Shown here: positions 16,107-46,769 of the stretch, in pieces
Numbering within the stretch: the first letter of the stretch is position 1
Layout: each line of letters starts with the position of its first letter
Assembly: GCA_007833815.1 (NCBI GenBank)
Contig: CP033464.1
Location: forward strand, 3,218,001-3,282,000
Direction of reading: 5' to 3'
Source of the DNA: Brevibacillus laterosporus
Lineage (GTDB): Bacteria; Bacillota; Bacilli; Brevibacillales; Brevibacillaceae
Length of the DNA stretch: 64,000 bases
Translations under genes and position numbers: made by a program
The notes under the pieces: generated by a model
What the model was told of the DNA's origin: nothing
Databases searched by the model: none
Seen by the model: only the letters and a program-made list of their open reading frames with translations

Positions 16107-17215
16107 TGGAAAAACGAACGTTATTTGTTGATTTGAATGAGAGAGCTTATCCGATTCATATTGGGGCAGGGCTGTTGAGCCAGACACCTGCCCTGCTACA
16201 GGAGGTAAACATCAAGGCTTCTCAAAAGCTATTTCTTATAACGGATGCCCATGTAGCGCAACACTATTTGAAGCCATTACAGCATCACTTAGCAGAGGCA
16301 GGTTATCAAGTTGCATTCCATATTGTTCCTGCTGGCGAAAAAGCGAAACAGTTCGCTGTCTACGAAGAGGTGATGACTGCTGCTATTGAGGCAGGGCTTG
16401 ATCGTAAATCTGTCGTGCTTGCATTAGGCGGTGGAGTTGTAGGTGATTTGGCTGGATTTGTAGCAGCCACGTATATGCGTGGAATTGATTTTGTGCAAAT
16501 TCCCACAAGCCTGCTGGCTCATGATAGCTCGGTAGGTGGTAAGGTGGCTATCAATCATCGATTGGGTAAGAATTTGATTGGAGCTTTTCACCAGCCTTTG
16601 ATGGTTATTTACGATGTGGCTACGCTACAAACATTGCCCCCTAGAGAAATCTCAGCTGGTTTTGCGGAAGTGGTTAAGCACGGTCTTATTTCAGATGAAG
16701 GATTTGTGCGATGGTTGGAGGAGCATGCGAAAAGTCTAATGGAGCTGGACGCTGAACTAGTTGGAGAAGCGATCTATCGTGGTTGTGCCGTAAAAGCGGC
16801 GGTTGTAGCCAAAGATGAGACAGAGCAAGATATTCGAATGACCTTAAATCTGGGTCATACCTTTGGTCATGCTTTTGAAGCATTGACTGGTTATAATCAG
16901 CTAAATCATGGGGAAGCGATCTCGATCGGTATGATAGTAGCTGCGCGTTATGCAGAGTCTATAAAAATGGCGCCACAAGGTGTAGCGGAGCGTACAAAAA
17001 GAGTGCTCTCAGCCTTTGGATTGCCAACCCAATGGCCAAAAGGATTGCATCCAGAAGATGTACTGAGGGCAATGCATCTGGATAAAAAAGGCGTTGCAGG
17101 AAAACTTACACTTGTTTTGCCAACTTCTATGGAGCATGTAGAGATCGTGCCTTGGGTAGAAGAAGAAAATGTACTACGGTTTATGAGAGTAGAGTGGGAG
17201 GAGTCACAACAATGA
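16106..17215 (+). CDS. aroB: 3-dehydroquinate synthase
   Basis: 369 aa NAD- and metal-dependent enzyme of the shikimate pathway (DAHP to 3-dehydroquinate). NAD-binding [13 protein letters not shown] near residue 110, [19 protein letters not shown] for the active site, and metal ligands in [12 protein letters not shown] and NHGEA. The ATG overlaps the aroC stop by one base, indicating translational coupling. Confidence 0.97.
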
Positions 17216-17583
17216 GTAAGCTAAGAGGGGTCCGTGGTGCGACAACGGTCACCCTGAATGAGAAGAGCGAAATTTTAACGGCAACCGCAGAGCTTTTGCG
17301 TGAAATGGTACGTAAAAATGGAATTGAGACAGACGATATAGCGAGCGCCATCATCACGATGACAGAGGATTTGGATGCTGTATTTCCAGCTCAGGCTGCA
17401 AGAGAGTTTTTGAAATGGGAGCATGTTCCACTTATGTGTGCAAAAGAAATTTCGGTGGAAGGTAGTCTAAAGTGCTGTATTCGTGTCATGCTACACATCA
17501 ATACTGATAAGTCTCCACATGAAATTCAACATATTTTTCAACGGGAGGCAGTTCGCTTGCGTCCAGATTTAGTAAAAGAATAG
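17212..17583 (+). CDS. aroH: chorismate mutase, AroH type
   Basis: 123 aa monofunctional trimeric chorismate mutase. The start [13 protein letters not shown] includes the active-site arginine of the RGATT motif; [10 protein letters not shown] is the second conserved stretch. ATG at 17212 overlaps the aroB stop as ATGA, with GGGAGGAG upstream; an earlier in-frame ATG inside aroB is unlikely. It makes prephenate for tyrosine and phenylalanine. Confidence 0.95.
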
Positions 17584-17613
17584 TTGACAGCAGGGGAGAA
17601 GGTTTTGTAAAGT
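17584..17613 (+). promoter_or_regulatory. putative trp promoter
   Basis: A perfect TTGACA at 17584-17589, right after the aroH stop, is followed by 18 bp and TAAAGT. The transcript would start near 17620 and carry a leader of about 250 nt before trpE. Confidence 0.6.
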
Positions 17614-17694
17614 AAGAGAAAGTTTTACTAGTTAAGAACAGGCAAGTAGATAAGAGCAAGATTAGTAGCAAGAGCAAGATAATAGGCAAGATCA

Positions 17695-17756
17695 GAGCTG
17701 AGTAGAGTTGAGAAGAGATAGGTTGTATGAGACGAGGAGAGCTGAGACTGGTTTAG
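17695..17756 (+). promoter_or_regulatory. (G/T)AG triplet array resembling a TRAP binding site in the trp leader
   Basis: GAG or TAG triplets begin at 17695, 17700, 17705, 17710, 17715, 17719, 17729, 17734, 17739, 17744 and 17754. The intervening register positions at 17724 and 17749 hold TGT and TGG. Spacing is 2 nt between triplets almost throughout. In B. subtilis the 11-subunit TRAP protein binds eleven (G/U)AG repeats spaced by 2-3 nt in the trp leader when tryptophan is abundant. Further loose GAG/TAG triplets and GCAAG repeats lie at 17647-17694. An intrinsic terminator follows 15 bp later. TRAP binding is inferred from the pattern. Confidence 0.65.
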
Positions 17757-17770
17757 CGATACTAAAAACC

Positions 17771-17801
17771 AACACCCAGGACTCTTTCCTGGGTGTTTTT
17801 T
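17771..17801 (+). terminator. trp leader attenuator
   Basis: An 11-bp stem (AACACCCAGGA pairing with TCCTGGGTGTT, loop CTCTT) followed by T4-5, 69 bp ahead of trpE. It could serve as the aroH terminator and the regulated trp attenuator. I did not find a convincing competing antiterminator; a hairpin of TGGTTT with AAACCA just upstream overlaps the terminator by only one base. Confidence 0.8.
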
Positions 17802-17869
17802 GTCTTACACATCATTCCATCTCCTATACGACCATCCTCTTTCTATCTAAGAAGAGAGGTGCGTTGTCC

Positions 17870-19456
17870 ATGTTAGAACCCACATTTCAAGAGGTGCAGC
17901 ATTATGCATCTACACACAATTTTATTCCGATTCGACTTACCCTTTTAGCTGATCAGGAAACACCGATCAGTCTGTATCAAAAATGTATGAAAGAAGCTTC
18001 TTTTTTGCTAGAAAGCGTTGAGGGAGGAGGGCATTGGTCTAGGTACTCCTTTATTGGTCTACGTCCCTTTTTACGGGTAGAAGCTAGCGATCAGCAGGTG
18101 ACGCTCCACAAAGAGTCCGGGGAGCGAGAACAGTTTAACCGAAATCCGATGGAAGTATTACGAGAATTGTGTCAGCAGTATAAAGCGCCTTCCATTGGTG
18201 AATTCCCGCCGTTGACAGGAGGAGCAATCGGATATCTAGGATACAATACGCTACGCTATGTAGAGACACAATTGCCAAAGCATAGAAATCAACCTCTAGA
18301 TATCCCTGATCTACATGTCGTCTTTGTTGATGAAATGCTTGTTTATGATCATGTGAAACAAGAAATTCAATGCATGGTTCACATCAGGGTTTCCGAGGAA
18401 GACACAGAAGAATCGCTACAGATTAAGTATGCAAAGGCAAGGTCACGTTTGGTTGCTTTACGTGATCATATCTTGCATACTGCTGTCTCAAAAGATACAA
18501 GACTACGGCAACAAGGAAACGAAATAAATCAGACAGGTAAACTCGACTCATACTGCCAACCTGATCAGCTAGGAGAAGAAGCTAAGAATTTAGCCACAAA
18601 CAGCTTGCAAAGCAACATGACTCTCTCAGAGTATGAGACGATGATCGCTAAAGCAAAAGAGTATATTGCGAGTGGAGATATCTTTCAGGTTGTCCTTTCT
18701 CAGCGTATGACGATGAAGACGGACGTGGACCCATTTGATGTTTATCGCATGTTGAGAACGACCAATCCGTCTCCTTATTTGTATTACTTACCATTTGAAT
18801 CAGCAACGCTGGTTGGGGCATCACCGGAAGTACTGGTAAAAGTGCAGAACAACAAGATTGAGGTTCGCCCTATAGCTGGTACACGCAAGCGAGGAGCAAC
18901 ACTTGAAGAAGATGTGGCTTTGGAGCAAGAATTGTTGGCCGATCCTAAAGAATTAGCTGAGCATCATATGTTGGTTGATTTAGCCCGTAATGATGCAGGA
19001 CGAGTCTCCAAATACGGTACGGTCAAGGTGGATAACGCTTTACATGTAGACCGTTACTCTCATGTGATGCATATTGTCTCTGATGTGTCAGGGGAGATGC
19101 GTGAAGATTTGGATTGTTTCGATGCTCTCCTTGCTGCTTTTCCCGCTGGTACGGTGTCTGGGGCTCCCAAATTGCGAGCGATGGAAATCATTGCAGAATT
19201 GGAGCAAGATGCTCGTCATACCTATGCAGGATCTATTTGCTACTTCAGTTTCACGGGCAATCTCGACAGTTGCATCACAATTCGTACCCTGTTGTTTACA
19301 GAGAATCATGTGCACATACAAGCCGGGGGCGGTATCGTAGCTGATTCGGTGGCAGAGCTTGAGTATCAAGAGGCAATGAACAAGGCAGCAGCGATGGTCA
19401 AAGCATTGGAAAAAGCAGAGAAACTCTTTCAGCCAAAGGGGGTAGCGTTATGCTAA
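17870..19456 (+). CDS. trpE: anthranilate synthase component I
   Basis: 528 aa, converting chorismate to anthranilate with the glutamine amidotransferase partner. The N-terminal feedback site is present as LLESVEGGGHWSRYSF; the C-terminal chorismate-binding domain has GDIFQVVLSQR, PSPYLYYL, RPIAGTRKRG and AGTVSGAPK. ATG at 17870 follows GAGAGGTG; the frame is open far upstream but that part lies in the leader. No trpG follows, so as in B. subtilis the amidotransferase is presumably shared with folate synthesis (pabA) elsewhere. Confidence 0.96.
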   Translation: MLEPTFQEVQHYASTHNFIPIRLTLLADQETPISLYQKCMKEASFLLESVEGGGHWSRYSFIGLRPFLRVEASDQQVTLHKESGEREQFNRNPMEVLRELCQQYKAPSIGEFPPLTGGAIGYLGYNTLRYVETQLPKHRNQPLDIPDLHVVFVDEMLVYDHVKQEIQCMVHIRVSEEDTEESLQIKYAKARSRLVALRDHILHTAVSKDTRLRQQGNEINQTGKLDSYCQPDQLGEEAKNLATNSLQSNMTLSEYETMIAKAKEYIASGDIFQVVLSQRMTMKTDVDPFDVYRMLRTTNPSPYLYYLPFESATLVGASPEVLVKVQNNKIEVRPIAGTRKRGATLEEDVALEQELLADPKELAEHHMLVDLARNDAGRVSKYGTVKVDNALHVDRYSHVMHIVSDVSGEMREDLDCFDALLAAFPAGTVSGAPKLRAMEIIAELEQDARHTYAGSICYFSFTGNLDSCITIRTLLFTENHVHIQAGGGIVADSVAELEYQEAMNKAAAMVKALEKAEKLFQPKGVALC

Positions 19457-46574: not shown

Positions 46575-46600
46575 AAAATTTTGTTATACTGCTTCTGAAG

Positions 46601-46769
46601 GCTATATCCCATGGGAATAGCACTTCCTTTTACGAAGTATGCTAGGAAAACATGTTTACAAAAAAATCTGCTCTAAGCCTAAAAGGACCGAGACAGAAGG
46701 AAGAGATTCGAATGGACTACGTGCTTTATTGCGTATACACGACCTTCGCCTGCGGTGCGGAGGTTTTTT
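46601..46769 (+). promoter_or_regulatory. structured leader of panBCD, pan-RNA-motif-like, ending in a terminator
   Basis: Three hairpins precede panB. The first is GCTA-ta-TCCC/GGGA-a-TAGC at 46601-46621. The second, at 46667-46697, is TCTG-CTC ... GCC with loop TAAAA and GG(A)C ... GAG(A)CAGA, with two single bulged adenines on the 3' side. The third, at 46742-46769, is a G-C rich terminator (ACCTTCGC/GCGGAGGT with T6). Two bulged adenines are the hallmark of the pan RNA motif known upstream of panB in Bacillota; I recall that feature but cannot run a covariance search. The terminator 75 bp before panB suggests attenuation. Confidence 0.5.

Follow-up and report, generated by a model that had tools for sequence, protein, structure and literature searches.

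The window, by which we mean the whole 64-kb stretch of DNA that was analysed, carries the trpEDCFBA operon preceded by the chorismate mutase gene aroH, and a leader with several putative regulatory elements lies between aroH and trpE (Table 1). The initial annotation had placed a TTGACA promoter at the head of this leader and a terminator followed by trpE at its end, and both were recovered in that order, with trpE starting 3' of the terminator hairpin. The TTGACA...GTAAAGT promoter is common to the relatives L003-L006. In other relatives, an inverted repeat, GGCGCTCTC...GAGAGCGCC, overlaps the -10 region of the trp promoter; it was read by eye in the first 50 nt of L023 and L030, variants of it occur in further genus g2 leaders, and it has no counterpart in the window. 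An operator and a terminator of the aro operon are candidate readings of this repeat. Elsewhere in the window, at 46598-46700, the Rfam pan motif (RF01749, cis-regulatory) was matched (42.4 bits; gathering score 36.2).

Table 1. Features of the trp leader and its flanking genes, in window coordinates.
Feature	Position	Strand	Basis	Remark
aroH	17212..17583	+		chorismate mutase gene, 5' of the trp leader
trp operon promoter, sigma-A-type	17584..17613	+	consensus scan, 10/12	TTGACA / 18-nt spacer / TAAAGT
Main TRAP-binding array (predicted)	17695..17746	+	best single-ring fit	10 (G/T)AG triplets in 11 register slots
GGTTGTAT	17721..17728	+	predicted fold of the free leader	covers the empty array slot, pairs with 17826-17833
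Proposed antiterminator, two forms	17734..17787	+	minimum-energy folds of the nascent leader	
Extra TAG	17754..17756	+		within the antiterminator 5' arm; part of the count in the initial annotation
Attenuator	17771..17801	+		11-bp intrinsic terminator hairpin 17771-17797, T tract to 17801
Anti-Shine-Dalgarno element TATACGACCATCCTCTTTC (predicted)	17825..17843	+		pairs with the free array, or with the trpE start region if the array is masked
trpE ribosome-binding site (GAGAGGTG) and start codon	17854..17872	+		ATG at 17870
trpE	17870..19456	+	open frame; tblastn of N-terminal part vs relatives	first gene of trpEDCFBA

Eleven non-overlapping GAG/TAG triplets were counted in the leader (17695, 17700, 17705, 17710, 17715, 17719, 17729, 17734, 17739, 17744, and 17754), and this agrees with the number first proposed for 17695 to 17756. 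The accompanying description of an almost unbroken 5-nt register was overstated, as the steps between the triplets are 5, 5, 5, 5, 4, 10, 5, 5, 5, and 10, that is, seven of the ten spacers are 2 nt long, one is 1 nt, and two are 7 nt. Triplets at 17703 and 17737 overlap members of the chosen eleven, and seven more lie further 5' in 17629-17685. An additional one at 17616 probably precedes the transcript start, as placed from the promoter. In the main array, the empty slot is near 17724, between the triplets 17719 and 17729. With ten triplets in eleven slots, one ring would fit this stretch, leaving TAG17754 outside; this TAG is absent in L003-L005. An array of about eleven triplets is thus present before trpE, as ten in eleven slots plus one, with the 1-nt and 7-nt spacers deviating.

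The TRAP gene and the conservation of the leader

The initial annotation had named an mtrB homologue as a check on TRAP control. Such a gene was found about 24 kb upstream of the trp leader in the same genome (G000:C4:3211344-3211547, E 5.6e-39), and its 77-aa product matches crystallised TRAP 1c9s at E 2e-34. In alignments to 9bds and 9be8, the product keeps the EK in HHTEKLDKG and the K and R in IKVRG, the stretches that would hold Glu36, Lys37, Lys56, and Arg58. Contacts of TRAP with (G/U)AG are described for Glu36, Lys37, Lys56, and Arg58 (PMC4027176). The TRAP gene was present in all 40 genomes of the family and in 273 of the 399 genomes sampled from the class. Because TRAP is so common in the class, mtrB alone proves little, and it is the array beside trpE that matters. 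The distance between mtrB and aroH is about 24 kb in this genome (G000:C4:3211344 to 3235212), 20-22 kb in G001, G003, G004, and G005, and about 10 kb in G002 and, among members of another genus, in G008 for example, so that some members of the genus have extra DNA within the cluster.

Conservation of the triplets in relatives was the other check named at the outset. aroH and trpE lie on one extracted stretch in 38 of the 40 family genomes, with 259-461 nt between them, and triplets followed by a terminator were present in all 38 of these leaders; the terminators were found by a script, except that the terminator of L009 was placed by hand. The arrays span six genera, plus a seventh. A 67-nt scan gave a span of exactly 11 register slots for 25 of the 38 arrays, many of which come from closely related members of one genus, and a span of 12 for 8 arrays; the spans are 14 in L006, 10 in L009, 6 in L011, 9 in L012, and 13 in L064. 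The main array of L011 has only 6 triplets.

A second GAG/TAG cluster lies near the transcript start in L007 (p 0.004), L068 (p 0.004), and L064 (p 0.018), by shuffling p values uncorrected for the 38 leaders tested, and may be a second TRAP site. In the window, a second upstream TRAP site was not significant (shuffling p 0.11). Two genomes have a rearranged locus. In G036 (L117, L122), an insertion separates aroH from the trp leader and contains a 439-aa frame with Pfam matches to helix-turn-helix and IS481-type leucine-zipper domains; triplets and a terminator are present beyond it. In G032 (L116, L120; Brevibacillus massiliensis), triplets and a terminator precede a short frame and then trpD; no trpE match was found in its trp operon, and two trpE-family matches on other contigs fall below the curated cut-off. 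In L121, no triplet array was found within 420 nt after its match.

Outside the family, arrays scoring at least 6, a cut-off of our own choice, precede the best trpE match in 15 of 24 TRAP-bearing Bacilli, and no array was found before that match, which may not be the trpE of the trp operon, in the other 9 of 24. A 7-8-nt gap like that of the window occurs in 10 of these 15 arrays. The earlier suggestion that nearly all spacers are 2 nt, and that the switch may for that reason differ from the one in B. subtilis, is not supported, since the spacers of the window are 1, 2, and 7 nt long and such gaps are common in other Bacilli.

Terminator, proposed antiterminator, and the trpE start site

The 11-bp intrinsic terminator that had been proposed is present, with 6 of 11 G-C pairs, an uninterrupted run of 6 T, and an energy of -17.9 kcal/mol. 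The terminators of the 38 family leaders have a median of -9.8 kcal/mol; 11 of the 38 are at or below -12.6 kcal/mol, and 30 of the 38 have a T run of at least 6. By these energies, a strong stem characterises the clade of the window and a few others, not the whole family.

Two forms of an antiterminator were predicted by folding the nascent leader. In RNA ending at 17784, GAG17744-46 pairs with CTC17782-84, CTGG17748-51 with CCAG17776-79, and TTTAG17752-56 with CTAAA17762-66; when the array is masked, only the GAG/CTC pairing is lost, and the other two still fold. With a free array and RNA ending at 17790, two pairings are predicted, GAGGAG17734-39 to CTCTTT17782-87 and CTG17742-44 to CAG17777-79; masking the array replaces them with the top of the terminator hairpin. 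Once the complete terminator has been transcribed, it is predicted to form whether the array is free or masked. Folding with and without the array masked, a comparison suggested in the initial annotation, therefore gave a shift at RNA end 17790 but none at full length. Equilibrium folding of the whole leader was rejected as a test of the switch, because the terminator is favoured whatever the array does. Since the terminator forms at full length even with a free array, antitermination would have to be kinetic, and in this model the point of action of TRAP would thus be a short kinetic window.

The antiterminator hairpin of the window has an energy of -4.4 kcal/mol and is no stronger than its dinucleotide shuffles (p 0.27), and its own pairing ranks 9 of 17 among swapped arms, which gives it no advantage over them. 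Across the family, 37 of 38 leaders have a predicted hairpin, in the stretch from the last GAG to the end of the terminator 5' arm, that takes up one or more bases of the arm; in L004, L065, and L067, it takes up a single one. Hairpin energies are below the mean of dinucleotide shuffles in 23 of 29 distinct segments (mean z -1.3). The stem sequences vary between lineages and the pairing is kept, and exchanging arms between lineages weakens the stems, with p values of 6.6e-4, 3.0e-4, and 1.4e-4 for the 8, 12, and 17 representatives at three redundancy cut-offs, in a test that was redesigned once, after the first result, to add CCAG; the first version, without CCAG, had given 0.09, 0.18, and 0.01 for 11, 13, and 22 representatives. 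The 38 leaders comprise 32 distinct segments; when 20 of these were aligned, the hairpin arms failed to match up, and pairs were not counted on that alignment. An antiterminator sharing the terminator 5' arm appears supported by covariation in the family and is weak in the window itself. The doubt raised in the initial annotation, which had found no clear antiterminator, is resolved in part: the relatives have a covarying hairpin at the right place, and a weaker version is predicted in the window.

A second predicted rearrangement concerns the start of trpE. In the fold of the free leader, the pair probabilities between GGTTGTAT and its partner strand are 0.80-0.89. The anti-Shine-Dalgarno element pairs with the array with a probability of 0.89 when the array is free, and with the trpE start region with a probability of 0.83 when it is masked, as measured on TACGACC 17827-17833 with the array held unpaired as a stand-in for TRAP. 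The predicted hairpin that covers the ribosome-binding site and start of trpE has a z of -0.46 and is not unusual for its composition. Predicted folds of the window and L006 show the start-site switch and those of L003, L004, and L005 do not; masking the array across the 38 family leaders lowered the accessibility of the start site in 11 and raised it in 10. A uniform translational switch across the family was rejected on this count of 11 down vs 10 up. From these predictions, a translational layer is likely for the window, and for the family it is unproven.

A bolder idea, to which we give a small chance, is that the clade uses the empty ring slot on purpose, with GGUUGUAU (17721-17728) acting as an anti-anti-Shine-Dalgarno strand, and that the second 5' cluster of several relatives could seat a second ring. 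If the slot were used in this way, one ring would carry the tryptophan signal to two machineries, with the last triplets serving the polymerase and the vacant slot the ribosome.

The predicted start-site switch also invites the reading that TRAP binds the leader and acts mainly on trpE translation, with the terminator constitutive or of minor importance. The hairpin over the ribosome-binding site, which switches with array masking in the window, and the weak antiterminator of the window would be in keeping with it, as would the TRAP control of trpE and trpG translation known in B. subtilis from work cited in PMC3913778. We nevertheless consider it improbable, because the terminator is strong and has a counterpart in every one of the 38 leaders, and a permanent strong terminator ahead of a biosynthetic operon would make little sense; moreover, the start-site hairpin is unexceptional in its z value and its switching is not uniform among relatives. 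Attenuation by a ribosome translating a leader peptide, or by a T-box, would leave the GAG repeats incidental and has hardly any likelihood: the terminator does stand before trpE and an open frame does run from TTG17708 through the leader into trpE, but this frame is free of Trp codons up to trpE, the leader has no match to a T-box or any other Rfam family at gathering score, and both mtrB and the triplets are conserved.

Array statistics, the putative trpG target, and anti-TRAP

The longest strict run of triplets in the leader (steps 5-6) is 5; when this GA-rich stretch was shuffled 2000 times with its dinucleotide composition kept, 68 shuffles equalled that run. Under looser step rules, 268 and 531 of 2000 shuffles reach the observed run. 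This weak statistic was set aside and a gapped-chain score was used instead, which is 9.2 in the leader and at most 4.3 elsewhere in the window. Mononucleotide shuffling of the 151-nt leader stretch, repeated 2000 times, gave no score as high as 9.2, the maximum being 6.4. Because the penalties of the chain were chosen with the window already in view, the score is not independent, and a genome-wide count of six-triplet patterns is the cleaner test. With 2-nt spacing and at most one mismatch, this pattern has three matches in the 5.76-Mb genome, two of which sit in the trp leader with one mismatch each, and its reversed control has one match genome-wide.

The trpG gene is unlinked to the trp operon (G000:C4:1137002), and a triplet array covers its ribosome-binding site and gene start (p 0.012, mononucleotide shuffles). 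The array is loose, with 6 triplets in the best chain and spacers of 3, 8, 2, 2, and 4 nt. Among the 40 family genomes searched, trpG starts were parsed in 37, with L100, L108, and L115 left out; an upstream array reached p<0.05 in 36 of these 37 and p<0.01 in 28 (mononucleotide shuffles), and the last triplet lies at most 12 nt from the ATG in 36 of 37. The exceptions are L113, with p 0.10, and L111, in which the last chained triplet is 29 nt from the start. We propose that trpG may be co-regulated with the trp operon through the array over its ribosome-binding site. A chance origin of the GAG repeats in a GA-rich stretch, which the 68 shuffles matching the strict run might suggest, can practically be dismissed in view of the gapped-chain result, the lack of a rival chain in 64 kb, the genome-wide rarity of the pattern, the conservation across six genera and a seventh, and the second array at trpG.

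A homologue of anti-TRAP was also found in the genome (L168:9927-10106; G000:C4:5342926-5343105). It has 60 aa and is 58% identical to B. subtilis anti-TRAP across 50 residues, and it sits in a prophage-like region, with a terminase small subunit, an HNH endonuclease, an integrase, a tail sheath, and a neck protein as neighbours. A Trp T-box ahead of this anti-TRAP (rtpA) gene was not found, as no Rfam family reached its gathering score in the surrounding 3162 bases. Anti-TRAP homologues occur in 15 of the 40 family genomes at E<=0.001, some of them weak or with stops, and this distribution is patchy, as if they were carried by mobile elements. There was one weak match to the homologue among 50,697 phage records. 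If a prophage did lift TRAP repression, this would be of interest.

Proposed mechanism and comparison with known systems

The leader of trpEDCFBA is very probably controlled by a tryptophan-activated TRAP ring encoded by mtrB of the same genome, a reading to which we assign a probability of about 0.9. The TRAP-controlled attenuation put forward in the initial annotation is supported, at the level of sequence, by mtrB with its RNA-contact stretches, the array, the terminator, their conservation, and the array at trpG. In the presence of tryptophan, one 11-subunit TRAP ring would wrap 17695-17746 and remove the last triplets (17734-17746) from the antiterminator, so that the terminator 17771-17797 would form and transcription would stop before trpE. 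Without tryptophan, the array would be free, the antiterminator would hold the 5' arm and loop of the terminator, and RNA polymerase would read through. In the read-through RNA, the free array may pair with the anti-Shine-Dalgarno element (17825-17843) and leave the trpE start more open, and TRAP on the array may free this element to sequester the start of trpE.

No report on TRAP in Brevibacillus was found in the literature searched, which lay mostly outside subscription papers, so that such a report may be in print. Our results place a textbook RNA switch in the Brevibacillus family as well, and the array, the terminator, and the unlinked trpG site have comparative support. The support for the antiterminator is likewise comparative and less firm.

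The trp leader of B. subtilis, as described in PMC3913778 and PMC4027176, combines an 11-subunit TRAP (mtrB), a (G/U)AG array, and overlapping antiterminator and terminator hairpins followed by trpE, together with a structure that sequesters the trpE ribosome-binding site. The leader of the window resembles it in mtrB, in the array, and in the terminator before trpE, and it may also share the overlap of a proposed antiterminator with the terminator and the predicted structure at the trpE ribosome-binding site. Translational control of trpG by TRAP is also known from B. subtilis (work cited in PMC3913778), and the triplet array over the ribosome-binding site of the unlinked trpG is similar to that arrangement. 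The trp leaders of other TRAP-bearing Bacilli are alike in having arrays before the best trpE match, with 7-8-nt gaps common among them. By its anatomy, protein, and conservation, the leader is, as read from sequence, a member of the known TRAP-controlled trp leaders.

There are also differences from B. subtilis. Eleven repeats are described there at distances of 2-3 nt, whereas the single-ring fit in the window has ten triplets in eleven slots, and its spacers include one of 1 nt and one of 7 nt. PMC4027176 places the B. subtilis antiterminator at +60 to +111 and the terminator at +108 to +133, which gives an overlap of 4 nt; in the window, the overlap between the proposed antiterminator and the terminator would be 14-17 nt (17771 to 17784 or 17787). 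The B. subtilis attenuator is described as weak (PMC3913778): 4 of its 10 pairs are G-C, and its U tract is interrupted. Similarly poor attenuators are described there for several other TRAP species. In contrast, the attenuator of the window has 6 of 11 G-C pairs and an unbroken run of 6 T. As it appears to be a proper intrinsic terminator, it could help to separate the direct role of TRAP in termination from the role of TRAP in RNA refolding.
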